From Limnobacter alexandrii (GTDB lineage Bacteria; Pseudomonadota; Gammaproteobacteria; Burkholderiales; Burkholderiaceae_B), in NCBI RefSeq assembly GCF_005871185.1, contig NZ_SWKN01000006.1, forward strand, positions 1,218,451 through 1,282,450: a stretch of DNA of 64,000 nucleotides. Direction: 5' to 3'. The translations under genes were made by a program, and so were the position numbers. This document shows, piece after piece, positions 12,831-28,062 of this stretch. The notes under the pieces are model-generated. The model saw nothing but the letters and a program-made list of their open reading frames with translations, was not told where the DNA came from and did no database searches. Each line of letters opens with the position of its first letter. Within the stretch, counting starts at the first letter, position 1.

Positions 12831-13694
12831 TCAGGCAGCGTTGCCAACGGGCGTGTCGCTGGTACCCAAGCGCGCCATCACTTCCTTGCGGTAGCGGTTC
12901 AGGTCTTGTACCGATTCGAAAGTGCGTTCAAACAGCAAACTCATGTTGTGCAAAATGCGGTCAACCACTTTCTTTTCCCAGTCGGCATCAAAGCGAATTT
13001 GACCATCCAGCCAGTTTTCCAGCCAGTCGGGGTCAGGCAAGCGGCTTTGCACTGTGTCGTTGGGGAACAGGTCTTTGTTCACATGCAGGTTGGTGGGGTG
13101 CAAGGGTTTCTGGGTGCGGCGGGCTGAAGCCATCAGCACACCAATTTTGCTGAATGCAGCGCGTGCACCGTCGCCCACCTCAACCAGGGCTTTTTTCATG
13201 TAACGCAGGTAGGCGCCACCATGGCGTGCTTCATCGTGCGAAATAATTTTGTAAATTTGCTTGATCACGGGTTCTGTGTGCCAATCCGAGGCGCAGCGGT
13301 ACCAGTGGTTCAGGCGAATTTCGCCGCAGAAGTGCAGCATCAGCGTTTCAAGCGGTGGCGCTGGGTCAAATTCAAAGCGCACTGCATGCAATTCTTCCTC
13401 GGTGGGCAATAAATCGGGCCGGAAGCGGCGCAGGTACTCCATCAACACCAGCGAATGTTTTTGCTCTTCAAAAAACCAAATGGACATGAAGGCAGAAAAG
13501 TCACTGTCGTGTTTGTTGTCACGCAAGAACATTTCAGTGGCCGGCAAGGCGGACCACTCGGTGATTGCATTCATTTTGATGGTTTGGGCCTGCTCTTCAG
13601 ACAACTTGGAAGCATCGAACTGATCCCAATTGATGTCTTTTTCCATGTTCCAACGAACGGACTCCAACGACCTGAATAATTCTGGATACAACAT
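12831..13694 (-). CDS. Ferritin-like di-iron protein, acyl-ACP-desaturase-like
   Basis: 287 residues. Carries a complete set of candidate di-iron ligands: E46 (ITEWSALP), E76 with H80 (EEQKH), E125 (CGEIRLNHW) and E155 with H158 (DEARH). The EExxH...DExxH arrangement and the opening EKDINWD are like the plant-type acyl-ACP desaturase branch of ferritin-like proteins, though the protein is shorter (desaturases are usually 330-400). Probable O2-dependent oxidase or desaturase; substrate unknown. It may be cotranscribed with rfaE2 and lies next to the lipid-modification operon, which hints at a lipid role. Confidence 0.68.
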   Translation of the reverse strand: MLYPELFRSLESVRWNMEKDINWDQFDASKLSEEQAQTIKMNAITEWSALPATEMFLRDNKHDSDFSAFMSIWFFEEQKHSLVLMEYLRRFRPDLLPTEEELHAVRFEFDPAPPLETLMLHFCGEIRLNHWYRCASDWHTEPVIKQIYKIISHDEARHGGAYLRYMKKALVEVGDGARAAFSKIGVLMASARRTQKPLHPTNLHVNKDLFPNDTVQSRLPDPDWLENWLDGQIRFDADWEKKVVDRILHNMSLLFERTFESVQDLNRYRKEVMARLGTSDTPVGNAA

Positions 13695-13824
13695 GTTGCT
13701 CCACCTTCACTGAATAGATTTGACTTTGTGATTTTAACAAGACATGTCATGAAGCGCATGAAGATTTGGTGACATGGGGCTTTTATGTGCACAAGTGTAC
13801 GCCGAAACGGTTCGGCCAAGGCTT

Positions 13825-14313
13825 TCAGCCCGCCTGCTTTTTCAGCCAGCGCATCAGTCCCCCCAGCACCGGGATCTTTTCATAAAGCTCTTCAGCCGTG
13901 TCCCAGTAGTCTCTGTGGGACTGTACAAGCCCATTTTGGTTCAACAACAGGTGTGAGGAGCCTTTGATGCACTGCACCTGTCCGGCCTTGAAACGTTTCA
14001 TCTCAAAGAGAAAGTCCCAGGCCATGAACACCTGTTGGCCCGATTGAAATGCGGTGTGCACCACAAAGCGAGGGTTCTCGACCTGATGAAACATTTCGCC
14101 AAAAATGCGGGCGATGTCTTCAACCCGGTTTACTTCGTTGAATGGGTCTTTGAAATAAGCATCCGCCGCATAAAACCTGGGCATGTCAGCCACCGTTTGC
14201 TCGGTCAGGTGTTCAAAAAAATCAATCAATCTGCGTAGTGGTTCGGAAAGCTGCTGTCGATCCAGTGGCGCCAGGCCAGCTGTTCTTCCGGAGGCGTTAC
14301 TTGCTTTGCTCAT
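13825..14313 (-). CDS. NTF2-like (SnoaL-fold) protein
   Basis: 162 residues. Pattern of an NTF2-like cone fold: N-terminal helices with FYAADAYFKDPFNEV, then beta strands (FVVHTAFQSGQQVFMAWDF) and HRDYWDTAEELY. Proteins of this type recur in the conserved light/singlet-oxygen clusters with SDR, Cfa and FAD genes. Last gene of the eight-gene minus-strand operon; its start lies 17 bases inside the SDR gene. Function unknown: small-molecule binding or isomerase chemistry is possible. Confidence 0.7.
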   Translation of the reverse strand: MSKASNASGRTAGLAPLDRQQLSEPLRRLIDFFEHLTEQTVADMPRFYAADAYFKDPFNEVNRVEDIARIFGEMFHQVENPRFVVHTAFQSGQQVFMAWDFLFEMKRFKAGQVQCIKGSSHLLLNQNGLVQSHRDYWDTAEELYEKIPVLGGLMRWLKKQAG

Positions 14314-15106
14314 GGCCCAGTTCCGCTTTGTTTTTGTTTGCAGTCAGCTTGCGCACTGCAGCAAAGTACAGAGAATAAGGCAGCACGCGCAAGGTTCGAA
14401 GCGAGCGTGTGAACGCCTTGGGGAAGTGAATTTCGAATTCGCCTTTCTCAAGGCCAGTGATAATTTCCTGCGCCGCTTTTTCAGCAGTAATCAAGAACGG
14501 CATGGGGAAGGTGTTTTTGCGGGTCAGTGGGGTGTCTACAAAACCTGGATTCACCACGCTCACGCCCACATGGTGCGGCTTTAACTCCACGTGTAGCGCT
14601 TCGGCCAGGTTGATCAACGCTGCCTTGGTTGGCCCATAGGCCAGTGAATTGGGCAGGCCTCGGTAGCCCGCCACGCTGGATACAATGGCCAGGTGCCCCG
14701 ACTGTTGTGCGAGCAATTTGGGCAGTACATTGGCCAGCACATACATGGTGCCGTTCAGGTTCACATCGATTTGTTGTTTCACTTTCTCGATGTCGAATTC
14801 AGCCACCGACATTTCCGAGTAAGTGCCCGCCATCAGCACGATCAGGTCGACACCACCCCAAGCCGCCGTAATATTGTCAAATGCTGCTTTCACAGCCGCT
14901 TGTTGGGTAATGTCCAGGGGCAGGGCGGTGGCATGTTGCAATTCGCCAGCCAGTGTGGTCAGTTTGTCTGCGCTGCGGGCCGACAACATTTGCTTGCAGC
15001 CCAGCTGGTCCAGCTGGCGGGCCAAGGCTTCACCAATGCCGGTGGAGGCGCCCACCAGCCACACCCGCTTGTTTTGCCATTGGGTCAGTTTCGGGTTAAA
15101 GCTCAT
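14297..15106 (-). CDS. Short-chain dehydrogenase/reductase
   Basis: 269 residues. Classical SDR: cofactor motif GASTGIGEALA (residues 19-29), LIVLMAGTYSE near 90 replacing the NAG segment, catalytic SSVAGYRGLPNSLAYGPTKA with Ser, Tyr and Lys near 142-160, and VNPGFVDTP after it. The C-terminus carries a basic, hydrophobic tail. Reduces or oxidises an unknown alcohol/ketone; the operon suggests a lipid-linked substrate. Placed 13 bases after the DUF3833 gene. Confidence 0.85.
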   Translation of the reverse strand: MSFNPKLTQWQNKRVWLVGASTGIGEALARQLDQLGCKQMLSARSADKLTTLAGELQHATALPLDITQQAAVKAAFDNITAAWGGVDLIVLMAGTYSEMSVAEFDIEKVKQQIDVNLNGTMYVLANVLPKLLAQQSGHLAIVSSVAGYRGLPNSLAYGPTKAALINLAEALHVELKPHHVGVSVVNPGFVDTPLTRKNTFPMPFLITAEKAAQEIITGLEKGEFEIHFPKAFTRSLRTLRVLPYSLYFAAVRKLTANKNKAELGHEQSK

Positions 15107-15118
15107 GCGGGTTCCTTT

Positions 15119-15685
15119 TCAATCTCGTTTGCGAAAGCTCAACAACACCTCGCCCAATTCAATGCCGAACTTGCTCATGGTGGCGCGGTTCAACATCACT
15201 TTGTCGTCCATCTGGTACATCCAGTCATCGAACTGCACTTCATAGGTGGTGCCATCGACGGGCAGCAGCATGGTGTACTTCCATTGAAATGCATTGCCTG
15301 AAGTTTCACCATGCGCCTGACCCAATACATCGCCCGCAGTGCCTGTGTATTTGTTGCCGTCTTTCTTCAACGTCCAGATGCGTTTCTGGGTGGTGCCATC
15401 CGAGTAGGTAAAATCTTCGTCCAACACACCGGTGTCACCATCCCAGGTGCATTTCATCACCACAGTAAAGCGCTTTACCACCTTGCCCGAGCGGTCCTGA
15501 AACACACCCCACGCATCAATGGTGCCATTGAAATATTCTTTCAAGTTCAGCACAGGTTTTTCCTGGGCATAGTCGCTGGGTTGCGGGCTTGCGCAGGCCG
15601 TTAAAACCAGTGCACCTGCCAAGGCAAGGAATGCCAGTTGCAGCTTGCGTGCCCATTGTTTTGCCGATTGTTTTGCGATAATCAT
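15119..15685 (-). CDS. DUF3833 lipoprotein
   Basis: 188 residues from ATG 15685. A lipoprotein signal peptide ends in the lipobox LTAC (cysteine near residue 30), so the protein is likely anchored in the envelope. The mature part matches DUF3833: LNLKEYFNGTIDAWGVFQD, TVVMKCTWDG, TLDEDFTYSDG-like strands and a C-terminal LGEVLLSFRKRD. The start is chosen for the signal peptide and for its ATGA overlap with the MFS stop. Function unknown; DUF3833 is a regular member of the CfaS-DUF1365-FAD gene neighbourhood. Confidence 0.85.
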   Translation of the reverse strand: MIIAKQSAKQWARKLQLAFLALAGALVLTACASPQPSDYAQEKPVLNLKEYFNGTIDAWGVFQDRSGKVVKRFTVVMKCTWDGDTGVLDEDFTYSDGTTQKRIWTLKKDGNKYTGTAGDVLGQAHGETSGNAFQWKYTMLLPVDGTTYEVQFDDWMYQMDDKVMLNRATMSKFGIELGEVLLSFRKRD

Positions 15686-17067
15686 GCGGTACTCCCAATT
15701 GCGGTATTGTTGTTTGTTCGGTTCAGGCTGGCCAGCCCACTGCGGCCCAACAGCACAATGGCCAGCAGCTTCAAGGCGCAAGGCACCAAGGCGTACACCC
15801 ACAGCAGTGGGTCGTTGGCCAATTGCTGCAGCAGCCCCATGTTTTGATAAGACTCGGTTGTTGCCATGTCGGCTGAATAGTTGAACCACTGCAAGGTGCC
15901 CAGCGCAAAACTGGGTGCCAGTGCCAGGTTGAATTTGTTGACCCAATTCCAAAGCCCAAAATAGGTGCCTTCTGTTTTGCCACGTTCGCCGTTCTCTTCG
16001 ATTAGCCGGGCCACCAGGGCAGCAGGCAGCGAAAGGTCTGCACCTAGCGCGAAGCCAGTGACTATGCACACGAACAGGTAGCCAGCCAGGTCGCCTTCAC
16101 CCAATACCACCACAACAATGAAGGCAGGAATGGACAACACCATGCCCAAGAGCCATGAACGTGCCAAGCCGATTTTACTGGCCAGCCACACCCAGAATAC
16201 CGTGGATGCCGCACCTACCAAAAAGTACACGGCCAGTACCCATTGATCGGAATCGCCCAGGCCCAAGCGGTCGCGCATGTAAAAAGGCACCAGCGTGGCC
16301 GGCAATGCCGCAGCCAGGCCATTGCACAAAAATACGCCCATTAATTTGCGAAAATTTTGGCGGCGCAAAGGTTGCACAATGTCGGCAAATCCTTTGCGAA
16401 TGGCCGTTGCGACACTGGTTTGCGCATGGTCGAAAGTTTGCGCAAGCGGGCTGAGGGGCTGTTGTGCGCTTTTGTCAGGTTGTGGCGAGAATTTAAGCAG
16501 CAAAAACATGCCCAACACCAACATCACCGCGAACACAGTGAAAATCAGTCCAGCATTGGTCTCCAGCGCAAGCGACACTGCGAATACCACACCCAGAATG
16601 CCCACACCTTCACGCACCGCCACATAGGTTGAGCGCTCTTTGTCGGTGTGGCCCAATTCGGCACCCCAGGCTTGGTAGGCAATGCTGGCAAAGCTATAGC
16701 CCAGGTGAACCACAATCAGGCTCACCATCAGGCTGGCGGCATATTCAGTCGGGTTGCTGCCCAGCGGGAAAAACACGCCCGCCATGCCCAGCAACAACAG
16801 GGGCACGGCCAGGAGCAAGGGCAGGGCGTAGCGGTTGCCCTTGCCGCCCCGGCGGTCAACCCACAAGCCAATTGCGGGATCGAGTACCGCATCCAGCAAC
16901 CGTGAGAGCAACAAGATGATGCCCACCCATGCGGAGGGCACTTCGTAAATGCGGGAATACAGGTAAGGCACCTGAATGTATATGGGCACGGCCACAGCGC
17001 CCAAGGCCCAGCCCAAAAGGCCGTAATTCAGCAGGTCTTTGGCGCTGGTGCGGGGCTGTTGATTCAT
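15682..17067 (-). CDS. GPH-type MFS transporter
   Basis: 461 residues with about twelve membrane segments. The segment RLLDAVLDPAIGLWVDRR near residue 58-75 (D-P-xx-G-xx-D-R) is the signature of the glycoside-pentoside-hexuronide:cation symporter branch. Such a transporter is a known part of the sigmaE/LitR-linked furan or cyclopropane fatty acid clusters; its substrate there is unknown. Lies 17 bases after the chalcone-isomerase-like gene and overlaps DUF3833 by four bases. Confidence 0.85.
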   Translation of the reverse strand: MNQQPRTSAKDLLNYGLLGWALGAVAVPIYIQVPYLYSRIYEVPSAWVGIILLLSRLLDAVLDPAIGLWVDRRGGKGNRYALPLLLAVPLLLLGMAGVFFPLGSNPTEYAASLMVSLIVVHLGYSFASIAYQAWGAELGHTDKERSTYVAVREGVGILGVVFAVSLALETNAGLIFTVFAVMLVLGMFLLLKFSPQPDKSAQQPLSPLAQTFDHAQTSVATAIRKGFADIVQPLRRQNFRKLMGVFLCNGLAAALPATLVPFYMRDRLGLGDSDQWVLAVYFLVGAASTVFWVWLASKIGLARSWLLGMVLSIPAFIVVVVLGEGDLAGYLFVCIVTGFALGADLSLPAALVARLIEENGERGKTEGTYFGLWNWVNKFNLALAPSFALGTLQWFNYSADMATTESYQNMGLLQQLANDPLLWVYALVPCALKLLAIVLLGRSGLASLNRTNNNTAIGSTA

Positions 17068-17084
17068 GTCGGCGCGGCCGTTAA

Positions 17085-17654
17085 TCAGCGTTTCAAGCCA
17101 ATCAATTCACGGCGCATTTCAGGTGCAGAAGTTTTTGGGTCCAACCAAATGCCCATGAATGCCTCGGCCAGTTCTGGGTCGTCCACTTTGGCCAGGGGCA
17201 AGCCATTTCGGAAAAACTGAACCCCCTTGCCTGGCGTAAACAGCGCACTCAAGGTGTGGCCTTTTTTTACGTCGGGAAAAATCTCGTTCAATTTGACCAG
17301 CCATCCCTGGCGTTGCACTTCAGTGCCTGCGCCAATCTCTTCCATTTCATCAATGCTGCGTTCGGCAATGTCGCTGCCATCAAAATCGCGGGCATATTTC
17401 AGTTCCAGCCAAGAGGGGTCGCGCTTGTAATTGAAGCCTTCGGGTTCGGCGTTGGACCAAAGTTGGCCGTCGTACACGCGCAAACCAAACCAGCGCAGCG
17501 TGCCATAGCCCATCAGCTTGGCGTTCTCAATGGTTTGCGTGACCTGTTTTGGCGGCGCGTTCAAGTTGCTGTTGGCCAGCGCCAAGGGGGCTGTGCCCAG
17601 CAGGGCAAAGCACAGCAAAGCACGTTGAATGAACTGAACCGGAAACAACTTCAT
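17085..17654 (-). CDS. Chalcone isomerase-like periplasmic protein
   Basis: 189 residues. A signal peptide (about 1-27, ending PLALA) is followed by the chalcone-isomerase-like fold pattern, for example MGYGTLRWFGLRVYDGQLW and YARDFDGSDIAERSIDEM, and FFRNGLPLAKVDDPELAEAF. Bacterial members are not known to act on chalcones. The gene overlaps the methyltransferase stop by four bases. Probably a periplasmic ligand-binding partner in the lipid pathway (inference). Confidence 0.8.
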   Translation of the reverse strand: MKLFPVQFIQRALLCFALLGTAPLALANSNLNAPPKQVTQTIENAKLMGYGTLRWFGLRVYDGQLWSNAEPEGFNYKRDPSWLELKYARDFDGSDIAERSIDEMEEIGAGTEVQRQGWLVKLNEIFPDVKKGHTLSALFTPGKGVQFFRNGLPLAKVDDPELAEAFMGIWLDPKTSAPEMRRELIGLKR

Positions 17655-18877
17655 TGATTTTCAACCTTCTCGAGGTAAAACTGGATGACATCGGTACTTT
17701 CGTATTCAAACCCCGCTTCGCAGTAGGCCAGGTAAAACTCCCAGGTGCGGATGAACGGGTCGTCAAAGCCCTGGTTTTTCACCTGCTCCAGCGTTTTCAT
17801 GAACTGCGAGCGCCAGCGGCGCAATGTTTCAGCATAGTCTTTTCCAAAGGCTTTTTCCGATACCACGCGCAAACCATGCTTTTCTGCCATGGCTCTGAAT
17901 TTTGCAGGTGACGGCAACATGCCACCCGGGAATATGTATTGCTGAATGAAGTCGGTGCCTTTGCGGTAACGGTCGAATAGCTCGTCTTGAATCAAAATCG
18001 TTTGAATGGCTGCCTTGCCGCCTTTTTTCAACAGTCGATTCACCGACTGAAAGTAGGCTGGCCAGTATTCTTCGCCCACGGCTTCAAACATTTCAATTGA
18101 AGCAATGTGGTCAAACTGGCCACGGCAGTCGCGGTAATCTTGCAGCCTGAAATCGGCCTTCTCTGCAAAACCCTGTTTTGCCAGGCGTGCTTTGGCAAAG
18201 GCAAGTTGTTCCGTCGACAAGGTCAAGCCGACCAAGTCAGCACCCGACGCACAGGCCTTTTCAGCAAAGCCACCCCAGCCACATCCAATTTCCAGAACCT
18301 GTTCACCCGCCCCGGGAGTCAAGTAGTTCAGCATGGCCTGGTACTTGGCATGCTGGGCCTGTTCCAGACTCAGGCTGGTGTCGCCATCAAACAGCGCACT
18401 CGAGTAGGTCATGGTAGGGTCCAGCCACAACTGGTAAAACGGATTGCCCAAATCGTAGTGGGCATGAATGTTTTTCTTGGCTTGGGCCTTGGTATTGCGA
18501 TTCAACAGGTGTTTGATTTTGTAAGCGATACTGCCCAGAAAACTGCCGTAAATCACGGTTTCCACTGCTTTGCGGTTTTCAAGAAACACACCCAGTACCG
18601 AGGCAATGTCGTGCGTTTCCCATTCGCCCGCAATGTAGGCTTCTGCAAAACCGATGTCACCTGCTTTCAGTGCCCGCTGGCACACAGCCCAGGAATTCAA
18701 TTTGATTTTTGCGCTGGGCTGGTCTTCCTCGCCGCCAAACAACAGGTGCACACCTTCGGGAGTCACGATCTCCAGGCGTCCCTTTTTCAGTTTGGTCAGC
18801 AATTTCAGGGTCCACTGTGCCGACGACGGTGCGTGGCTGGGCAGCTGGAACTGGGAAAATGTAATGGCTTGAGTCAT
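17651..18877 (-). CDS. Cyclopropane-fatty-acid synthase family SAM methyltransferase (UfaM-like)
   Basis: 408 residues. Methylates unsaturated acyl chains of membrane phospholipids. A Cfa-type N-terminal domain (about 1-130) precedes the SAM domain with motif I VLEIGCGWGG (near 196-205), GLTLSTEQ, and a Cfa-like HYDLGNPFYQLWLD before it. In this gene context (FAD oxidoreductase, DUF1365) it is more likely the methylase of furan fatty acid synthesis (UfaM of Rhodobacter and light-induced ufaM of Pseudomonas putida, from memory) than a classical Cfa; that is inference. Overlaps both neighbours by four bases. Confidence 0.85.
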   Translation of the reverse strand: MTQAITFSQFQLPSHAPSSAQWTLKLLTKLKKGRLEIVTPEGVHLLFGGEEDQPSAKIKLNSWAVCQRALKAGDIGFAEAYIAGEWETHDIASVLGVFLENRKAVETVIYGSFLGSIAYKIKHLLNRNTKAQAKKNIHAHYDLGNPFYQLWLDPTMTYSSALFDGDTSLSLEQAQHAKYQAMLNYLTPGAGEQVLEIGCGWGGFAEKACASGADLVGLTLSTEQLAFAKARLAKQGFAEKADFRLQDYRDCRGQFDHIASIEMFEAVGEEYWPAYFQSVNRLLKKGGKAAIQTILIQDELFDRYRKGTDFIQQYIFPGGMLPSPAKFRAMAEKHGLRVVSEKAFGKDYAETLRRWRSQFMKTLEQVKNQGFDDPFIRTWEFYLAYCEAGFEYESTDVIQFYLEKVENQ

Positions 18878-19695
18878 GCTTCGATTTCAGTCTGCGTAAT
18901 TGTTTGACGGGGTGGGGCAGGCTTGCCATGAAACTTTGCGCCTTTGAACAGCAGTTTCACCGCTTGCCAATGAATTTTTGCGATTACGGCCAATGTAAAC
19001 CAACCGTATTTCAATAAGGTTTTACCCCAAAGCTGGGTGCTTGGATGCATCAGTTCTCCGCTCACGCTGGTGCTGAGCTGCTGAAGGGAGCCTTCAAAGT
19101 AGTTGATGCGTGCCATGGTTCGGTTTGCGCTGCTGACAAACCTGAATTCATAGCGCCCGGAGACCGGGAAAAAAGGTGACACATGAAATTCTTTTCGGGC
19201 ATGTAGCAGCATGCCTTTGTCAAGCGGTGCCTGGCTTTCAGGGGCGGTCAACAAGTAAAAGTGCCGTTCACCAAATGTGTTGTTCACTTCACACATCACA
19301 GCGCGGCATTGTTGTGCCTCATTGTGGAAATACCAAAAGCTGACCGGGTTGAACACATAACCGAATACTTTTGGAAAGGTGTGCAAATGCACCGGGCCTT
19401 GCAGGGCCATGCCTGTTTCTGATTCAACCTTGCAAACCAGCGCAGTGACAAATTCTGGAAACTTTAGCGCGTGTTGCTCAAACCCGTAATTGCGGGCTGA
19501 CACGGACACCAGGCCTTTGCCGTCGATCACCGGGTATTTGTGCGCAGGTTTTGACTCAGGCTGTGTCGAAAATTCCAGGCGAACGAAACAAGCGCCAGTG
19601 GCAAAACCATTGGCCTTTGGGAGTGCCCGGTGATGTTTCACCAGGCCCCAGGCCAGTTTTACATTGTTGAGTTGAAAACGCCCTTGCGCCATCAA
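18874..19695 (-). CDS. DUF1365 protein (candidate furan fatty acid pathway enzyme)
   Basis: 273 residues, COG3496-like. Features seen: RNYGFEQHALKFPEFV, then VFGYVFNPVSFWYFHN, the hallmark NPVSFWY of DUF1365, EVNNTFGERHFY, and KEFHVSPFFPVSGRYEF. There is no signal peptide. DUF1365 is nearly always next to Cfa-type methylases and an NAD/FAD-binding amine-oxidase-like protein. In Rhodobacter a neighbour of this kind is thought to be UfaO, needed to add the furan oxygen (recollection). Tightly coupled with both flanking genes. Confidence 0.85.
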   Translation of the reverse strand: MMAQGRFQLNNVKLAWGLVKHHRALPKANGFATGACFVRLEFSTQPESKPAHKYPVIDGKGLVSVSARNYGFEQHALKFPEFVTALVCKVESETGMALQGPVHLHTFPKVFGYVFNPVSFWYFHNEAQQCRAVMCEVNNTFGERHFYLLTAPESQAPLDKGMLLHARKEFHVSPFFPVSGRYEFRFVSSANRTMARINYFEGSLQQLSTSVSGELMHPSTQLWGKTLLKYGWFTLAVIAKIHWQAVKLLFKGAKFHGKPAPPRQTITQTEIEA

Positions 19696-21005
19696 GCCGC
19701 CTTTTGTCTGGTTTTCGCCAAGTTGTCAATTACTGCGCGTGCAGCATTCAAGCCAGAAGTGTGTCCGTCTTCGTGAAAGCCATATTTCATCCACGCACCT
19801 GCCAGGTAGACATTGTTTAAGCCTTGAAGTTCGGCCAAGGCCTGCTGGGCCTGAACAGCTGGCACGTCAAACACGGGGTGGGAGTAATGGATTTCCCGAA
19901 ATACTTGATTCGTATCGGGTTGTATGATCGGGTTCAATGTCACAAAGATCGGTTTTTTCACCGGCAGCGGTTGCAGCAGGTTGCTCCAGTAGGTGACCGA
20001 CACGCTGGGCTGGGGGTTTAACACATCACTCAGGTAATTCCAGGACGACCAGGTGCTGCGGGTTTTGGGCATCAGTTTTACGTCGGTGTGTAGGTAGGCC
20101 ACATTGGGCTGGTATTTGATGTGCTGTAACTGATCTTTTTGGGCCTCGTTTCCGTTGAGCATGCCCAGCGCTTCGTCGCTGTGGCAGGCCATGATCACAT
20201 GGTCAAACTCTTGCTCGCCCAGTTTCGTTTTTACAATCGGTTTTGCAGCTGTGGTGTCAACTTCCAACACCGGGGTGCTTGGGTGAACCACATCTACCAG
20301 TGGCAATATTTTTTGCACGTAGTTGCGCGCACCGTTTTTCACAGTGAACCACTTGGGTCTGTCATTCACTTGCAACAGACCGTGGTTGTGACAAAACTGA
20401 ATGAAAGTGGCCAAGGGAAACGCCAGCATTTGTTCGCTGGGGCAAGACCAAATGGCCGCGGCCATTGGAATCAGATACCAGTCACGAAATTCAGCGCTGT
20501 ACTTTTCCTCGACCAGATAGTCGCCCAAATGCATTTTTGCTTTGCTTTGGAATAGTGCGGCTCGCCCCGCATCGGCCACCATCGCGGTGGCTTCTTTGTT
20601 GAAGCGCAAAATGTCCAGCAGCATGCGAATAAAACGCGGGCGCAACAAATTGCGGCGTTGTGCGAATACGGTGTTCAGGTTTGTGCCTGCCCATTCAATA
20701 TTCAGTTCAGGCAAGCACACAGAGAAAGACATGTCCGACTCGACTGTTTCCACAGCCAGTTCGTCGAACAAGCGAATCAAATTCGGGTAGGTGCGTTCGT
20801 TGTACACCAGAAAGCCGGTGTCCACCGCAACCAGTTTTCCCTCGACTTCAATGTCCACGGTGTTGGTGTGGCCGCCAATGTAGTCATTGGCTTCAAACAG
20901 CGTGGTGTGTGCATGGTCTCGTAGCGCATAGGCGGCTGTGAGGCCGGAAATACCGCCCCCCACAATTGCGACTTTTGGTAACAACTCTTTTGTATTGTTG
21001 GTCAT
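19692..21005 (-). CDS. NAD(P)/FAD-dependent amine-oxidase-like oxidoreductase (UfaD-like)
   Basis: 437 residues, COG2907-like. An FAD Rossmann motif VAIVGGGISGLTAAYAL lies at 12-28 with the acidic residue LFEAN about 25 residues later, then GGHTNTV and DTGFLVYNERTYPNL. C-terminal GAWMKYGFHEDGHTSG is the second FAD-binding stretch. First gene of the eight-gene operon. The counterpart in the Rhodobacter singlet-oxygen regulon is, from memory, the acyl chain desaturase UfaD. Electron acceptor unknown. Confidence 0.85.
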   Translation of the reverse strand: MTNNTKELLPKVAIVGGGISGLTAAYALRDHAHTTLFEANDYIGGHTNTVDIEVEGKLVAVDTGFLVYNERTYPNLIRLFDELAVETVESDMSFSVCLPELNIEWAGTNLNTVFAQRRNLLRPRFIRMLLDILRFNKEATAMVADAGRAALFQSKAKMHLGDYLVEEKYSAEFRDWYLIPMAAAIWSCPSEQMLAFPLATFIQFCHNHGLLQVNDRPKWFTVKNGARNYVQKILPLVDVVHPSTPVLEVDTTAAKPIVKTKLGEQEFDHVIMACHSDEALGMLNGNEAQKDQLQHIKYQPNVAYLHTDVKLMPKTRSTWSSWNYLSDVLNPQPSVSVTYWSNLLQPLPVKKPIFVTLNPIIQPDTNQVFREIHYSHPVFDVPAVQAQQALAELQGLNNVYLAGAWMKYGFHEDGHTSGLNAARAVIDNLAKTRQKAA

Positions 21006-21082
21006 GTGTGCTCAGGTTTAAATAAAGCGAGGGTATTCACTAACATCCTAACCTTTTATTTACTGCAATAAGTGAAAGTGGC

Positions 21083-21101
21083 TCTGGCTTTTGAAGCCAG
21101 A
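21083..21101 (-). terminator. Stem-loop between folE2 and the lipid operon
   Basis: Perfect eight-base stem TCTGGCTT / AAGCCAGA with a three-base loop just after the folE2 stop on the minus strand. The downstream tract is only moderately T-rich, so termination is likely but not certain. The lipid operon would therefore use its own promoter in 21006-21082. Confidence 0.55.
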
Positions 21102-21114
21102 ACCAAGCTACTTC

Positions 21115-21921
21115 CTACTTTTGTTTGCGTTTGTCCTCTTCAATCCAGGCCACCGCCGAATGGTTGTGAATTGATTCAAAGTTTTCACTTTCAATTCTAT
21201 AAGCCAACACCTTCTTGCTGGCTCGCAGGCGGATCGCCACATCGCGCACCAAATCCTCTACAAATTTCGGGTTGTCGTAAGCACGCTCGGTCACGTATTT
21301 TTCGTCTGGGCGCTTGAGCAAACCCCACAATTCGCACGAGGCCGATTCTTCCGCCATGCGAATCAGTTCCTCTACTGCAATACCGTCGGCCACCAAGGCT
21401 CGAATCGTAATGTGGCTGCGCTGATTGTGTGCGCCGTATTCGGAAATCTTTTTCGAGCAAGGACACAGGCTTGTTACGGGTACGACCACTGTCATGAAGA
21501 CATCGGTAGTGGTACCACCGTTGTTGTCAGCCTCCAGCGTCACTTCATAATCCAACAGGCTGGCTACGCCCGACACTGGCGCAACCTTGCGCACGAAGTA
21601 AGGAAACCTCATGGTGATGGTGCCTGCATTGGAATCCAGTCGTTGAAGCATGTCGTGCATCATTTGCTTCAGGCCCACGGGTGTTAATGCACTTTCCTGG
21701 GATTGCAAAATTTCCAGGAAGCGTGACATGTGTGTGCCCTTGACATCACTGGGCAGGAACACCGACATATCAATGGTGGCAACCGAAGGTTGTGGCCCTT
21801 CCAGTGTTTCAACGATGATGGGGTGCTTGATTGCACGCACGCCCACGCGTTGAATGGCAATGTTGCGCTTGTCCGCGCGTGATTGTTCATCAGGTAAAAA
21901 AAGTCCGTCCGGTGCATTCAT
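21115..21921 (-). CDS. folE2: GTP cyclohydrolase FolE2 (type IB)
   Basis: 268 residues. Converts GTP to dihydroneopterin triphosphate, first step of folate/pterin synthesis; the type IB enzyme can use metals other than zinc. Seen: [20 protein letters not shown], which holds the active-site cysteine and the FolE2-specific pattern, and [25 protein letters not shown] later. ATG 21921 is favoured because GGAG (21930-21933) is eight bases upstream. It follows the peroxidase gene on the same strand by about 20 bases, placing it in the photo-oxidative island; folE is light-induced in P. putida (from memory), perhaps to supply photolyase antenna pterin. Confidence 0.9.
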
Positions 21922-21942
21922 GATGAAGCGCTCCAATAATAA

Positions 21943-22587
21943 TTACTGCTTTGTGATTGGATGTGCATCGAGTGCACGGCGAATTGCCTGTGTAACCTCC
22001 GGGCTTGTTGGTGAAACATTGCTTTTAAAAGTTTCTACAACTTGTCCTTGTCGATTAATCAGGTACTTGTGGAAATTCCAGCCGGGTTGTTCTCCGCTGG
22101 TCTGGGCCAATTGCTTGTAAAAAGGGTTGGCCGAATCCCCTTTCACCACGGTTTTTGCAAACATCGGGAATTTAACCCCGAAGGTGTTGTTGCAAAAAGC
22201 CGCGATTTCTTTGTTCGATTTGTATTCCTGGTTGCCAAAATCGCTGGATGGGAAGCCCACCACACTAAAGCTTTTGTCTTTGTATTGGCTGTGCACTTTT
22301 TCCAGTTCCTCGTATTGGCCGGTGAAGCCGCAGAAACTCGCTGTATTCACCACCAACAACACCTGGCCCTTGAATTGGCACATCGAAATCGGCTTCTCGT
22401 CTTGCAAGCGAGGAAATTGATGGTTCAAAAGCGCAGGACAGTCCTCGGCAATGTTCTTGGCTTTGCCAGCGGCTGCGTGTGCAGAAGTCAAGGGCAGCAG
22501 GGCGGCAAGCAGCAGAAATCCCAGTGCGGCTGTTCTCCACAGGTTTACCCGGACTGGACTAGACAGACGCTTGTCTTTACAATGCAC
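21943..22587 (-). CDS. Exported glutathione peroxidase-family protein
   Basis: About 214 residues if translation begins at GTG 22587. A signal peptide (hydrophobic core LGFLLLAALLPLTSAHA) precedes the GPx domain: NTASFCGFT with the peroxidatic Cys in place of selenocysteine, GFPSSDFGNQE with the conserved Gln, and WNFHKYLI with the conserved Trp and Asn. Thiol peroxidase reducing lipid or hydrogen peroxide, probably periplasmic. The start is uncertain: GTG codons at 22596 and 22587 and a TTG at 22653 are all in frame, and a candidate promoter (22606-22633) argues against the TTG. Confidence 0.82.
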   Translation of the reverse strand: MHCKDKRLSSPVRVNLWRTAALGFLLLAALLPLTSAHAAAGKAKNIAEDCPALLNHQFPRLQDEKPISMCQFKGQVLLVVNTASFCGFTGQYEELEKVHSQYKDKSFSVVGFPSSDFGNQEYKSNKEIAAFCNNTFGVKFPMFAKTVVKGDSANPFYKQLAQTSGEQPGWNFHKYLINRQGQVVETFKSNVSPTSPEVTQAIRRALDAHPITKQ

Positions 22588-22605
22588 AAAATCCACTTGA
22601 ATGTC

Positions 22606-22633
22606 TCTATATGTGTGGTTAAATCTCGGCCAA
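22606..22633 (-). promoter_or_regulatory. Candidate promoter of gpx-folE2
   Basis: On the minus strand, TTGGCC (22628-22633), a 16-base spacer and TATAGA (22606-22611) resemble a housekeeping promoter. If right, the transcript begins near 22600 and the leader before GTG 22587 is very short. Read by eye only. Confidence 0.35.
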
Positions 22634-22642
22634 TGTGCTAAT

Positions 22643-22713
22643 TTGATTAGCAATCAAGCTTTGAGTTCCATTATTATTCGTTCAGAGTGGCAAGTCAATT
22701 TGTCTAGGACAAA
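22643..22713. promoter_or_regulatory. Divergent control region with two 6-3-6 palindromes
   Basis: Between gpx (minus) and the CarH-like regulator (plus) are two perfect palindromes with the same geometry: TTGATT-AGC-AATCAA (22643-22657) and TTTGTC-TAG-GACAAA (22699-22713). A third inverted pair AGACA...TGTCT (22561-22576) lies in the gpx leader. They are candidate operators for the regulator. The direct-repeat consensus I recall for Pseudomonas PplR (TGTACA, twelve bases, TGTACA) was not found here. Confidence 0.45.
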
Positions 22714-22751
22714 ACAAAGATGTTGAAGTTTCACCGTGGTCAGGTTCAGGT

Positions 22752-23693
22752 ATGAATGAGCGTGCAGATTTAAGCCAACCCTCATTTTCAATAGCAGCAG
22801 TCGAGCGGGATACCGGCTTGCCCAAAGACACCCTGCGTGTCTGGGAAAAACGCTACAACTTTCCGCAACCAGGCCGCGATTCCTTCGGCGAGCGTATTTA
22901 TTCCATTGATCAGGTTGAAAAACTTCGCGTCATCAAGCGTCTTCTGGACGGTGGTCATCGCCCCGGAAAAATCATTGGACTGAGCATTGACGAGTTGGTG
23001 AAGCTTGCCGAAGTCAGCAGTGCAGGGTCGCGAATGAATGTGGCGCCAGACAGCCTCGACGAGCTGAATGGCTACATGGAATTGATCAAGCGGCATGATG
23101 CGGAAGAGTTTCGCCAAGCCATGTCGCGCCTGGCCCTCACCATGGGTTTGCGCAGGTTTGTGGTTGAAATTGTCGCACCCATGAACGCCATGGTAGGCGA
23201 TGCATGGGCGCGGGGTTATTTCGAAATTTTTGAAGAGCACATTTACACCGAAACCATTCAGGTTGTGCTTCGCAATGCCTTGAATACCATTCCCTCCACG
23301 CGCAAAGGTCCGCGTGTGTTGCTAACCACATTGCCCAATGAATTGCATGGTTTGGGCTTGCTGATGGCCGAGTGCATTTTTTCAATGGAGGGTGCACAGT
23401 GCGTCTCCTTGGGTACTCAAACGCCGATTTACGACATCGTTTTGGCAGCCCGTGCTCAGAACATCAATATCGTGGCCTTGTCATTCTCCGTCATTCAAAG
23501 CTCGCCCGCGGTGCTTGAGGCCGTGGCCGAGTTGCGCGAGAAACTGCCTCCGATGGTCGAAATCTGGTGTGGGGGTTCTTCCACAGCATTGCGTAAAAAG
23601 CCGTCTGAAGATTTCGTGTTGCTTTCCAGTCTCGAATCGATCAGCGAGTCGATTGCCGATTGGCGCATGCGTAACAAATTCAATCCGCAGTAA
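22752..23693 (+). CDS. CarH/LitR-type B12-dependent MerR-family photoreceptor regulator
   Basis: 313 residues. N-terminal MerR helix-turn-helix (about 12-75: AAVERDTGLPKDTLRVWEKR), then a helical bundle and a cobalamin-binding Rossmann domain. Hallmarks of light-sensing adenosyl-B12 regulators are all present: W152 and E162-H163 in W-x9-EH spacing (as W131/E141-H142 of Thermus CarH) and E197-L-H199-x-x-G202, the lower axial histidine motif. In known members dark tetramers repress and light releases DNA. It is divergent from gpx-folE2 and upstream of DUF2256 and photolyase, with which it forms an operon. No adjacent LOV protein is seen, consistent with B12 as the light sensor. Confidence 0.9.
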   Translation: MNERADLSQPSFSIAAVERDTGLPKDTLRVWEKRYNFPQPGRDSFGERIYSIDQVEKLRVIKRLLDGGHRPGKIIGLSIDELVKLAEVSSAGSRMNVAPDSLDELNGYMELIKRHDAEEFRQAMSRLALTMGLRRFVVEIVAPMNAMVGDAWARGYFEIFEEHIYTETIQVVLRNALNTIPSTRKGPRVLLTTLPNELHGLGLLMAECIFSMEGAQCVSLGTQTPIYDIVLAARAQNINIVALSFSVIQSSPAVLEAVAELREKLPPMVEIWCGGSSTALRKKPSEDFVLLSSLESISESIADWRMRNKFNPQ

Positions 23694-23698
23694 TTCTC

Positions 23699-23884
23699 GT
23701 GGCCGGAAAGCAGCAGTCGTTCAAAGGCAACAAATCGTATTTGCCCAGTAAACCTTGCGTGGTGTGCGCCAAGGAAATGACGTGGCGCAAAAGCTGGGCC
23801 AAGAATTGGGGTGATGTAAAGTATTGCTCCGACGCATGCCGCAAAGCGGCGCCCCGAATGAGCGGTAAATATCATGAGCAGTAA
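23699..23884 (+). CDS. DUF2256 zinc-ribbon-like small protein
   Basis: 61 residues starting with GTG five bases after the regulator stop. Cysteines CVVC and YCSDAC form a probable zinc-binding ribbon around a tryptophan-rich middle (TWRKSWAKNW), the DUF2256 signature. The 3' end overlaps the photolyase start by eleven bases. DUF2256 is habitually found beside cryptochrome/photolyase genes; its function is unknown. Confidence 0.85.
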   Translation: MAGKQQSFKGNKSYLPSKPCVVCAKEMTWRKSWAKNWGDVKYCSDACRKAAPRMSGKYHEQ

Positions 23885-25415
23885 AAACAAAGCCGTGGTG
23901 GTGTTGGGCGATCAACTCGACCTGAATAACCCCGCACTCTTGGCCAACCCCCCTGAATCAGCCGACATCATCATGGTGGAGTCTTCCACCGAATCCACCG
24001 TGGTTTGGGTTCACAAGGTGCGTATTGCATTGTTCCTCAGTGCCATGCGCCACTTTGCCGATGAATTGCGCAAGGCTGGTTACACCGTTCACTACCGCAA
24101 ACTTGGTGACACTGGCCAAAACAATTTGGTGCAGGAAATTGCGGCCTTGTGCAAACAACATGGCTTTTCCAGTGTGGACATGGCTGAACCCGGTGAATGG
24201 CGACTGGAGCAGGAATTTTTAACGCTGGCGAAGTCCGAAAACCTGAAGCTTCGCATGCTTGAGGATACGCATTACCTGTGCAGTCGCGCTGAATTTGCAA
24301 AGTGGGCCAGCGGCTACAAGCAAATGCGCATGGAGTATTTTTACCGTGAAATGCGCAAGCGCACGGGTGTACTCATGGAAGGCACTGAACCTGCCGGAGG
24401 TAAATGGAATTTCGATGCAGACAATCGCAGCGCGTTTCCCAAAGCTGGTCCTGGCAAAATTACACCGCCTGCATTTTTCGAGCCCGATGAAATAACACAA
24501 GCAGTGTGTGCTGAGGTCGAAGCGAATTTCCCTGATCACCCCGGAATACTGAAAAATTTCGCCTGGCCAGTTACGCGCGCGCAAGCCTTGCAGGCGCTCG
24601 ATGCCTTTATTGAGCATCGATTCTCCAATTTCGGTGCTTATCAAGATGCCATGTGGACCAACACGCCTTTTGGTTGGCACTCACTGGTGTCGAGTTCGAT
24701 CAATTTGCATTTGCTGCACCCACTTGAGGTGATTCAAAAAGCAGAGGCGGCTTATCGTGCAGGCAAGGTGGATGTGGCCAGTGCTGAAGGATTCATCCGA
24801 CAAATTCTGGGCTGGCGCGAGTTCATGCGCGGCGTGTATTGGCTCGACATGCCCAAGATGCGTGAAGATAACTTTTTGCAGGCAACACGCGATTTGCCCA
24901 AGTGGTTCTGGACCGGGCAAACCCAAATGAACTGTCTGAAAGATTCAATCGGTCAAACGCTTGATTACGGTTATGCACACCACATTCAACGCTTGATGGT
25001 GATTGGTAACTTTGCTTTGTTAGCCGGGCTCGTGCCGCAGCAGGTGGAAGACTGGTTCTTGGCGGTGTATGTGGACGCCGTGGAATGGGTTGAACTACCC
25101 AATGTGGCTGGCATGGCCTTGTTTGCCAACGGCGGGCGATTCACCAGCAAGCCCTACATTGCATCGGGTGCGTACATCAAACGCATGAGCAACTACTGCA
25201 CTGGCTGCAAATACAACCCAGCCGAGAAAACAGGTGACAAAGCTTGCCCTTTCACCACGCTGTATTGGGGCTTTCTGGACCAGCATGAAAAAATGCTGTC
25301 CGCCAATCCGCGCACTGGCCTGATGGCCAAAAACATTGCTCGACTTGATGATTCACAACGCCAGGCCCTTCGGGAAAAAGTGGCCGACACCTTCAAGAAT
25401 ATTGAACAACTGTAA
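23874..25415 (+). CDS. Fe-S bacterial cryptochrome/photolyase (PhrB type)
   Basis: 513 residues. An N-terminal Rossmann antenna domain (KAVVVLGDQLDL) and a C-terminal FAD domain. The ends of the FAD domain have YCTGCKYNPAEKTGDKACPF, giving cysteines typical of the iron-sulfur FeS-BCP class, and the preceding ASGAYIKRMSNYC. This class includes the (6-4) photolyase PhrB of Agrobacterium and CryB of Rhodobacter, which use dimethylribityllumazine as antenna. Repairs UV photoproducts with light; which lesion is not determined by sequence. Third gene of the light-regulator operon. Confidence 0.92.
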   Translation: MSSKNKAVVVLGDQLDLNNPALLANPPESADIIMVESSTESTVVWVHKVRIALFLSAMRHFADELRKAGYTVHYRKLGDTGQNNLVQEIAALCKQHGFSSVDMAEPGEWRLEQEFLTLAKSENLKLRMLEDTHYLCSRAEFAKWASGYKQMRMEYFYREMRKRTGVLMEGTEPAGGKWNFDADNRSAFPKAGPGKITPPAFFEPDEITQAVCAEVEANFPDHPGILKNFAWPVTRAQALQALDAFIEHRFSNFGAYQDAMWTNTPFGWHSLVSSSINLHLLHPLEVIQKAEAAYRAGKVDVASAEGFIRQILGWREFMRGVYWLDMPKMREDNFLQATRDLPKWFWTGQTQMNCLKDSIGQTLDYGYAHHIQRLMVIGNFALLAGLVPQQVEDWFLAVYVDAVEWVELPNVAGMALFANGGRFTSKPYIASGAYIKRMSNYCTGCKYNPAEKTGDKACPFTTLYWGFLDQHEKMLSANPRTGLMAKNIARLDDSQRQALREKVADTFKNIEQL

Positions 25416-25468: not shown

Positions 25469-26464
25469 ATGGGTTTGCTTGTAGATGGTCAGTGGCAGGA
25501 CAAGTGGTATGACACCAACTCGAGCGGTGGCAAATTTCAACGTGAAAGCGCCAAGCTGCGCAATTGGGTAACGGTTGATGGCAGCGCCGGCCCCACTGGC
25601 GTGGGTGGTTTCAAGGCGGAAAGTGGCCGTTACCACTTGTATGTTTCGCTGGCTTGCCCGTGGGCGCACCGCACACTGATTTTCCGGAAACTGAAAAATC
25701 TTGAAAGCCACATTGATGTGTCGGTGGTCAGCCCCGACATGCTGAGCAATGGCTGGACTTTCAACACCGAGGCTGGCAGCACGGGCGATGCACTTTTCAA
25801 GAGTGAATTCATGCATCAAATTTACACGCGTCACAAAAGCGACTATTCAGGGCGCGTCACTGTGCCGGTGCTGTGGTGCAAGAAGACCCATCAAATTGTC
25901 AGCAATGAATCGTCGGAAATCATTCGAATGTTCAATTCTGCATTCAATGACATGACAGGCAATCAGGATGATTATTATCCCGAGCCATTGCGTACGATGA
26001 TTGATCGCGTCAATGGCCTGGTTTATGACAACATCAACAATGGTGTGTACCGCGCTGGTTTCGCGACCACGCAGGGCGCGTATGAAGAGGCCTACAACGG
26101 CGTGTTTATGGCGCTCGATTCTGTTGAGAAAATTTTAGATAACAACCGCTATCTGGTAGGGCCGCAAATTACGGAAGCCGACTGGCGTTTGTTCACCACC
26201 CTGATCCGTTTTGATGCGGTGTACCACGGGCACTTCAAGTGCAATCGCCAACGGCTTGAGGATTTTCCGAATATTTCCAATTACGTGCGCGAATTGTATC
26301 AGTGGCCCGGCGTAGCCGAAACCGTCGACTTTTTCCACATCAAACGGCATTACTACTATAGCCACGACATGATCAACCCCACACGGGTTGTACCTGCCGG
26401 CCCTTCCATTGATTACATGCGTGAGCACAACCGCACGCGTTTGTCCGGCAGCCATTCGGCCTGA
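25469..26464 (+). CDS. Glutathionyl-hydroquinone reductase (Xi-class GST)
   Basis: 331 residues. Reduces glutathionyl-hydroquinones using glutathione. The catalytic cysteine C63 is in the class motif SLACPWAHR, and GRYHLYVSLACPWA plus the C-terminal helical domain (RFDAVYHGHFKCNRQRLEDF) match the YqjG/PcpF family. Length is usual. AAGGAG precedes the ATG. Follows the photolyase gene by 53 bases with no terminator, so it may extend the light-stress operon; a role in quinone detoxification would fit. Confidence 0.9.
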   Translation: MGLLVDGQWQDKWYDTNSSGGKFQRESAKLRNWVTVDGSAGPTGVGGFKAESGRYHLYVSLACPWAHRTLIFRKLKNLESHIDVSVVSPDMLSNGWTFNTEAGSTGDALFKSEFMHQIYTRHKSDYSGRVTVPVLWCKKTHQIVSNESSEIIRMFNSAFNDMTGNQDDYYPEPLRTMIDRVNGLVYDNINNGVYRAGFATTQGAYEEAYNGVFMALDSVEKILDNNRYLVGPQITEADWRLFTTLIRFDAVYHGHFKCNRQRLEDFPNISNYVRELYQWPGVAETVDFFHIKRHYYYSHDMINPTRVVPAGPSIDYMREHNRTRLSGSHSA

Positions 26465-27678: not shown

Positions 27679-27686
27679 TTCTTGAA

Positions 27687-27730
27687 GTGAGGACGACCTC
27701 ACCGCTCAACCTTCGATCGGGGACGGCCCC
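27687..27730 (+). promoter_or_regulatory. Guanidine-II (mini-ykkC) riboswitch
   Basis: Two hairpins in the leader of gdx/sugE. P1 has stem GTGAGG/CCTCAC with loop ACGA (27687-27702); P2 has stem GGGG/CCCC with loop ACGG (27719-27730); the linker is 16 bases. Both loops fit the ACGR consensus of the guanidine-II class flanked by GG/CC. The ribosome site GGGAG (27741-27745) is just downstream, so guanidine binding probably opens translation. The gene it controls encodes the expected guanidinium exporter. Confidence 0.95.
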
Positions 27731-27750
27731 ATTGCTTGATGGGAGTTGTC

Positions 27751-28062
27751 ATGTCCTGGTTAATTCTGTTTGTTGCCGGTCTCTTCGAAATCGTTTGGGC
27801 CATCGGCCTGAAATACACCGACGGTTTTACCCGCTTTGTTCCCTCGGTTATTACTTTGATTGCTGCGGCAATCAGCTTCGGATTGCTGGGCTTGGCCATG
27901 AAAACATTGCCAGTCGGCACTGCCTACAGTGTGTGGGTTGGCATTGGTGCAGCGGGCACCGTACTGATGGGTGTTTTACTGTTTAGCGAGCCTGTCAATG
28001 CGCTGCGTATCGGCAGTGTGGTGCTGATTGTTTTGGGTGTTTTGGGTTTAAAGCTGTCATGA
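27751..28062 (+). CDS. gdx: SMR-family guanidinium exporter Gdx/SugE
   Basis: 103 residues with four membrane segments. E13 in [12 protein letters not shown] is the essential SMR glutamate and W16 follows as in SugE/Gdx. Exports guanidinium in exchange for protons. GGGAG lies five bases before the ATG. Regulated by the guanidine-II riboswitch just upstream. Its stop overlaps the start of the LOG-family gene (ATGA). Confidence 0.93.

Follow-up and report, generated by a model that had tools for sequence, protein, structure and literature searches.

A furan fatty acid cassette beside a B12-type CarH regulator in Limnobacter: a predicted light-inducible photoprotection unit with a candidate palindromic operator

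The stretch analyzed here, called the window below, comprises 64,000 nucleotides of the genome of Limnobacter alexandrii (Burkholderiales; contig NZ_SWKN01000006.1, positions 1,218,451 to 1,282,450) and carries a furan fatty acid (FuFA) gene cassette divergent from the gene of a CarH-type regulator. We consider it likely that this locus forms a unit for furan fatty acid synthesis and photoprotection that is induced by light and controlled by a coenzyme-B12 photoreceptor. This reading draws on the gene content, the motifs of the regulator, an operator candidate that is conserved and adjoins a promoter-like site, the recurrence of the arrangement across the order, a UfaM-type signature in the methylase and a structure model of the DUF3833 protein. 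A first-pass annotation had described the region as a photo-oxidative stress island with a predicted furan fatty acid pathway; that description is supported here and made more specific, with the light response and the product remaining predictions. The gene set and its link to light were already known, and what appears to be new is that a B12-type photoreceptor, with an operator candidate of a distinct kind, stands at the cassette across an order. Among the papers listed in searches of titles and abstracts, with few subscription journals covered, none describes ufa genes next to a B12-type CarH or the palindrome TTTGTC-N3-GACAAA, which is weak evidence of novelty.

The eight-gene operon of the first-pass annotation is present in full, in an order conserved in Limnobacter and beyond, and Pfam scans confirm that it faces a CarH-type MerR regulator, DUF2256 and a photolyase, with a peroxidase and folE2 between. 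The features are given by window coordinates; the proteins were identified by Pfam scan, with any further basis in brackets.

13825-14313, minus strand: NTF2-like/SnoaL_2 protein
14297-15106, minus strand: short-chain dehydrogenase/reductase (SDR)
15119-15685, minus strand: DUF3833 lipoprotein with lipobox LTAC, predicted lipocalin-like barrel (structure model)
15682-17067, minus strand: GPH/MFS_2 family transporter
17085-17654, minus strand: chalcone-isomerase-like protein (CHI-like, Chalcone_3) with a signal-peptide-like start (start read by eye)
17651-18877, minus strand: UfaM homologue of the CMAS fold, with S/E/A/Q/Y at the positions of Cfa C139/E239/H240/H266/Y317 (alignment)
18874-19695, minus strand: UfaO homologue, DUF1365, in Rhodobacter the furan-forming oxygenase
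19692-21005, minus strand: UfaD homologue, an FAD amine-oxidase-type oxidoreductase, in Rhodobacter the 11-methyl-18:1 desaturase
21115-21936, minus strand: GTP cyclohydrolase FolE2 (NF010200 above cut-off)
21943-22596, minus strand: glutathione peroxidase (GPX) with a signal-peptide-like start, GTG start proposed (start read by eye)
22670-22698, minus strand: promoter-like TTGACT-17-AATAAT of the leftward operon (consensus match)
22699-22713, no strand: palindromic operator candidate TTTGTCTAGGACAAA (upstream comparison; recurs upstream of carH in relatives)
22752-23693, plus strand: CarH-type MerR regulator with MerR and two B12-binding domains (motifs)
23699-23884, plus strand: DUF2256 protein
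23874-25415, plus strand: photolyase of the FeS-BCP/(6-4) class, PhrB/CryB family, DPRP (protein matches)

The cassette genes are closely spaced (gaps of -17 to +17 bp); GPX and FolE2 lie 6 bp apart and FolE2 lies 109 bp before the cassette. The FolE2-UfaD gap holds a twelve-pair hairpin with a weak T-tract (21079-21105, minus strand), which may act as an attenuator separating GPX-FolE2 from the cassette. The start of DUF3833 was corrected to 15685 from the 16069 of the listed open reading frame (ORF), a choice supported by the lipobox. The photolyase matches the FeS-BCP/(6-4) photolyases PhrB and CryB at E values of about 1e-150 to 1e-122.

In Rhodobacter a role in FuFA synthesis has been demonstrated for UfaD (RSP1091), UfaO (RSP1090, DUF1365) and UfaM, and the R. 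palustris trio RPA2569-2571 is reported to be sufficient for 9M5-FuFA (PMC7380195). Homologues of all three stand side by side in the window, as in most surveyed full cassettes, which bears out the earlier suggestion that the first three operon genes correspond to this pathway. Their identity to five loci carrying MFS, DUF3833 and sigma-ChrR alongside (L110, L114, L125, L132, and L157) is 41-45% for UfaD, 28-36% for UfaO and 44-49% for UfaM. In R. sphaeroides the fatty acid profile is described as unaffected by deletion of RSP1087, RSP1088 or RSP1089 (PMC7380195), and these genes are therefore dispensable for making furan; judging from gene order and from the genes that PMC5507510 labels "lipoprotein" and SDR, they would encode an SDR, a DUF3833-like lipoprotein and an MFS protein.

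The cassette methylase is distinct from canonical bacterial Cfa, with which it shares the CMAS fold and equivalents of Glu239, Ile268, Tyr317, and Cys354. It was compared with solved Cfa structures and with the second CMAS of the genome, itself a canonical Cfa, with E. coli numbering transferred by alignment (the H240 and C354 labels are our own). Residues C139, E239, H266, I268, and Y317 are described as conserved active-site residues around bicarbonate (PMC3132707). Among 63 UfaM-labeled enzymes, position 139 is Ser in 52, Ala in nine, Pro in one and X in one, with Cys in none; Ala replaces His240 and Gln replaces His266 in 62 each, His266 being kept in none, whereas Glu239 is retained in all 63 and Tyr317 in 62. 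The signature thus separates a UfaM-type methylase from canonical bacterial Cfa, with which it can be confused by name, although plant cyclopropane synthases share the Gln and partly the Ser.

The regulator has the domain set of class I CarH/LitR proteins, namely a MerR helix-turn-helix (HTH) followed by B12-binding_2 and B12-binding domains, and both signature motifs, as defined in PMC9304148, are intact: WARGYFEIFEEH for Wx9EH and ELHGLG for D/ExHxxG (here ExHxxG). It aligns with T. thermophilus CarH through both B12 domains, signature residues included, and its only match in the genome is itself. Limnobacter sp. P1 and Limnobacter humi are among the named relatives that share 86-99% identity with it. 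A cob(I)alamin adenosyltransferase is also encoded. On these sequence features we infer that the Limnobacter protein binds adenosylcobalamin and that its DNA binding is released by light.

The linkage of this regulator to Ufa genes reaches well beyond the window. Relatives were taken as the best 80 of at least 572 stretches in a bacterial genome scan, with titles mostly of Burkholderiales or betaproteobacteria; at least four of the 80 are Limnobacter or near-identical to the relatives used to read the palindrome motif, and so are not independent. At least one Ufa gene lies within 10 kb of carH in 62 of these 80, all three in 42 and none in 18. In every one of the 62 linked loci carH is transcribed away from the Ufa genes and its product carries both motifs; nearby genes include GPX in 31, FolE2 in 21, photolyase DPRP in 12 and DUF2256 in five, with many contigs ending early. 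Unlinked carH genes occur in Pseudoduganella, a Massilia and several Duganella, while Duganella aceris has a linked one. Within Limnobacter, CarH adjoins the cassette in 13 of 14 other loci fetched, as it does in four of six loci from other families of the order, and DUF3833 is found in 16 of 16 Limnobacter genomes (own included) vs. none of eight other-genus genomes of the family; one genome (G011) was left out of the genus comparison.

Comparison of upstream regions in Limnobacter and relatives yielded the palindrome TTTGTC-TAG-GACAAA between carH and the leftward operon, which we regard as a candidate operator of Limnobacter CarH. Scored as the best match in 290 bp around carH starts, with loci on cut contigs kept in the counts, TTTGTC-N3-GACAAA occurs at no more than one mismatch in 36 of the 62 linked loci (21 exact) and in 7 of the 18 unlinked ones. 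Among controls, that level was reached in 1 of 5613 random windows and in 1 of 817 regions upstream of other genes in these loci. In the window the leftward -35 (TTGACT) stands directly against the palindrome with AATAAT 17 bp on, a consensus match, and TTGACT or TTGACG follows 0-4 bp past the palindrome in at least 15 of 35 aligned promoters (linked loci with at most one mismatch and enough flank, one being dropped). The operator type also tends to follow the regulator class. Near cassettes we found 27 CarH-profile proteins, the window's included, with both B12 motifs in 21 and neither in six (20 of the 26 outside the window have both). The first survey, covering the 21 B12-CarH loci, placed the palindrome near carH exactly in 15, with one mismatch in two and with two in three, L043 having none at that level; outside B12-CarH loci one match at up to one mismatch is listed, in L131. 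Of the six loci with motif-less MerR proteins, four (L095, L102, L112, and L113, but not L103 or L129) have an exact T(G/A)TACA-N12-TGTA(C/T)A upstream of genes, which is the type of the published class II LitR site (PMC9758184). A domain scan took in L095, L113, and L129 (L102, L103, and L112 were left out) and read them as MerR plus B12 cap domain, like class II LitR, as MerR only and as MlrA-like, respectively.

The following account of the light response, of B12 binding and repression, of the product and of every accessory role is inferred. In the dark, adenosylcobalamin-loaded CarH would sit on TTTGTC-TAG-GACAAA and block the leftward promoter and, by position, carH-DUF2256-photolyase; in the light, cleavage of the Co-C bond would release CarH and both arms would be expressed. 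UfaM would then methylate phospholipid vaccenoyl chains, UfaD would desaturate the methylated chain and UfaO would insert O2-derived oxygen to form the furan ring, which scavenges reactive oxygen. In the envelope, the periplasmic CHI-like protein, the DUF3833 lipoprotein and MFS_2 may serve to bind the modified lipids or to move them, with SDR, NTF2, and GPX perhaps processing oxidation products.

Several observations weigh against this light-operated unit. The palindrome matches 26 of the 62 linked loci at two to five mismatches only, and its presence at the seven unlinked loci means that it marks carH rather than the cassette as such. It abuts the -35 without covering it and would suit an activator too. 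At up to two mismatches there is no enrichment, with 12 genome matches vs. 10 for the reversed control, 135 vs. 177 across 16 Limnobacter genomes and five vs. 4.98 expected in the window; only the class with at most one mismatch is therefore informative, and genome-wide two-mismatch sites, for example near a fliS-like ORF, were not counted. Photolyase DPRP is near only 12 of the 62 linked carH genes, so the photolyase arm of the window is not general, and the hairpin in the 109-bp FolE2-UfaD gap may terminate transcription. The published CarH operator consists of tandem 11-bp nnnnTnnACAn repeats (PMC9304148), and two or more TnnACA spaced at 11 bp are absent from the window, being found in 2 of 62 linked loci, 0 of 18 unlinked loci and 0.4% of 3629 control windows when exact repeats are scored. 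This difference from the published repeat is what would favor a different regulator binding the palindrome, its conservation near carH being incidental. However, the palindrome lies near carH at up to two mismatches in 20 of the 21 B12-CarH loci first surveyed, exact class II sites take its place in four of the six loci with other MerR proteins, and the middle base is A or T in 41 of 41 counted sites, which places TnnACA on one strand; CarH operators are moreover described as plastic, degenerate repeats being usable too (PMC9304148). Binding by another regulator seems to us quite improbable. The regulator could also be CarH itself but with another role, sensing B12 supply or oxidative state or controlling only carH-photolyase, the cassette being constitutive or under another factor. 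The target of a palindrome between divergent genes is not assignable from position alone, and 18 of the 80 best B12-CarH loci lack a nearby Ufa gene, seven of them with the palindrome at no more than one mismatch. We find this role rather unlikely, however, given that the palindrome abuts promoter-like sequence directed at the cassette, that the AdoB12 motif residues are intact and that the Limnobacter partner genes include a photolyase.

The chemistry of the cassette has to be weighed in the same way, as it could make a methyl-branched or cyclopropane fatty acid instead of a furan, with the UfaD and UfaO homologues doing other chemistry. Cotton cyclopropane synthases have Gln at 266 and, in two of three, Ser at 139 (PMC3132707), so the methylase signature means "not canonical bacterial Cfa" and does not mean "no cyclopropane"; its use as proof of product was dropped. 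An Arabidopsis protein is described as similar to both UfaM and UfaD (PMC10940516), and the identity of the window UfaO to the five ChrR-linked loci is just 28-36%. The Halomonas UfaM, whose gene lies next to ufaD and ufaO, yielded 11-methyloctadec-12-enoate in E. coli, but cyclic fatty acids were also reported there, in a host that has its own Cfa (PMC12089945). Nonetheless, the three Ufa genes are consecutive, as in the trio that suffices for 9M5-FuFA in R. palustris (PMC7380195), the genome has a separate canonical Cfa, and UfaD, UfaO, and UfaM occur together in 40 of 80 fetched phylum loci; a non-furan product is, in our view, unlikely.

These phylum loci show that the cassette is a known, widespread unit of the Proteobacteria that matches the published sigmaE-ChrR core regulon. 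DUF3833 was present in 113 of 398 sampled genomes, and 80 of the 112 others were fetched, one locus each, mostly the better matches and in stretches of at most 20 kb; the survey was anchored on DUF3833, whose frequency there is thus by construction. The labels ECF sigma, ChrR, DUF2878, PhrB, YbgA, and LON are blastp clusters named by eye with one representative each checked, and LysR was assigned by eye only. Among the 40 full cassettes SDR is found in 38, NTF2 in 32, CHI-like in 26, DUF2878 in 17 and MFS in 13, and the regulators are ChrR and/or ECF sigma in 16, a MerR protein matching the CarH profile in seven and neither in 17. The first-pass annotation had suggested checking the co-occurrence of accessory genes with ufaM, and CHI-like, DUF3833, SDR, and NTF2 do recur in this cassette across Proteobacteria; their co-occurrence is therefore not special to the Limnobacter locus. 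MFS and DUF2878 are together in none of the 40, which were drawn from loci L094-L173 (hypergeometric 1e-4, uncorrected for kinship), with ten having neither. This exclusion of MFS_2 and DUF2878 looks like alternative solutions for one membrane step, with lineage effects possible. Where CHI-like is present it immediately precedes DUF3833 in 34 of 39 loci. The pair also occurs with no Ufa genes within the fetched stretch in L098, L119, L128, L144, L152, and L162, and may have a function of its own.

Plant CHI-fold proteins bind fatty acids, and MFS_2 relatives such as MFSD2A transport lysolipids. We hypothesize that the CHI-like protein, DUF3833 and MFS_2 form an envelope lipid-handling branch. 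CHI-like proteins have an N-terminal hydrophobic run in 78 of 88 cases, with Tyr61, Tyr87, and Phe166 conserved at 1.00 and Arg89 at 0.89. DUF3833 is predicted to be a lipocalin-like lipoprotein, the structure model (pLDDT 92.8, ten strands) resembling calycin-type barrels such as BFA1 (TM 0.63 on query), the fatty-acid-binding-like Ycf58, CpeS lyase and nitrobindin. The lipobox Cys is kept in 17 of 17 aligned DUF3833 sequences, and a loose lipobox pattern is found in 84 of 100 DUF3833 proteins of the fetched loci and in 48 of 60 in full cassettes. For a family rarely named in the literature searched, this model is a structural lead. The UfaO model is confident (pLDDT 90.4) but had no PDB match at E 0.001 or better, and the idea of reading its mechanism from the fold was dropped.

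The genome contains three palindrome sites at no more than one mismatch, against about 0.3 expected in random equal-base sequence. The second lies upstream of an operon of SDR, an FAD_binding_7 photolyase-like protein and DUF3429, a context seen in three Limnobacter genomes. This row (L083 1301-3841, plus strand, near C1:1301) resembles the phr-SDR pair that belongs to the RpoE2 regulon in Shewanella. Among 20 DUF3429 regions of other genera, none has the palindrome at up to one mismatch and three have a photolyase-like gene match, so on this evidence the second operator-bearing operon is genus-specific. The third site, with its context in four genomes, is upstream of a 137-aa gene without a Pfam match, which in G000 and G004 has another, two-mismatch site at its other end; the protein occurs in all 16 Limnobacter genomes and in none of 24 others. 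By eye it looks like a degenerate receiver-type fold, and the gene (L082 3861-4274, minus strand; C7:141863-142273) could encode a light-induced CarH partner.

The locus can be set beside several known systems. The sigmaE-ChrR singlet-oxygen core regulon, as described for Rhodobacter, Shewanella, and P. syringae, shares homologues of UfaD, UfaO, UfaM/cfaS, the SDR, the lipoprotein and the photolyase, and the described Shewanella regulon includes a periplasmic GPX, the Limnobacter GPX having a signal-peptide-like start. Elsewhere in the Proteobacteria the cassette often neighbors sigmaE-ChrR or a MerR protein that lacks B12 motifs. In Limnobacter, however, no rpoE-chrR pair was found by a Cupin_7 profile search of the genome, whose single match is a tandem cupin without a sigma factor among adjoining ORFs, and a B12-type CarH stands at the locus instead; the first-pass statement that no such pair is visible holds on this search. 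The tandem Cupin_7 protein (L050 5135-5794, plus strand, near C1:756158 of the own genome) lies beside a large B12-dependent-mutase-like protein. In Pseudomonas, the class II LitR proteins PplR1 and PmlR1 are likewise MerR-family LitR/CarH regulators beside phrB, SDR, an FAD oxidoreductase and ufaM, with folE in the regulon (PMC9758184). In agreement with the first-pass annotation, the genes that light induces through LitR in P. putida, there of class II, include ufaM, phrB, and folE; in P. mendocina light induction is reported as strong for ufaM and phrB and weak for folE (PMC9758184). Class II LitR has lost the B12 Rossmann domain, retaining just the 4-helix domain, and uses a LOV partner and TGTACA-N12-TGTACA (PMC9758184), whereas the Limnobacter CarH has intact Wx9EH and ExHxxG and the palindrome TTTGTC-N3-GACAAA. 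The earlier remark that no LOV protein is visible also agrees with a search for the canonical motif NCRFLQ, the only LOV motif searched for, which gave two degenerate matches, neither of them NCRFLQ. Class I CarH/LitR proteins of Thermus, Bacillus, and Myxococcus have the same MerR HTH, B12-binding cap and Rossmann domains with the signature residues, but their targets are described as mainly carotenoid genes (PMC9758184) and their operators as tandem 11-bp direct repeats (PMC9304148), in contrast to FuFA genes and a palindrome in Limnobacter. A single weak SQS_PSY match (31.8 bits) was found for carotenoid genes.

Two genes flank the features listed above.

12831-13694, minus strand: ferritin-like diiron protein, a neighbor judged to be outside the cassette
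25469-26464, plus strand: glutathione S-transferase-like protein, 3' of the photolyase, with uncertain membership of the unit

The island had been drawn from 12831 to 25415, and while its gene set up to the photolyase stands, its start coincides with the diiron gene, which we exclude because it travels with hldE elsewhere and lies 130 bp apart. The same protein was considered as an additional furan oxygenase and rejected, as it accompanies hldE in other families, also beyond carH. Further along, a Guanidine-II (mini-ykkC) riboswitch (27685-27731, plus strand, 49.8 bits) precedes a 108-aa ORF at 27736-28062.

Taken more broadly, we tentatively propose, as a possibility somewhat short of even, that across Burkholderiales a B12 photoreceptor took over the FuFA program run elsewhere by sigmaE-ChrR, by way of a new palindromic CarH operator. 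Such a switch would anticipate photo-oxidation from light itself, ahead of any damage, and a dedicated envelope branch (the CHI-like carrier, DUF3833, and MFS_2 or DUF2878) would move furan lipids out of the inner membrane. The locus offers a specific operator and a natural comparison between damage-sensing and light-sensing control of one gene set. B12-type CarH has been described mainly as a carotenoid switch (PMC9758184; PMC9304148), and its role would become wider if it had a lipid-modifying target throughout an order.

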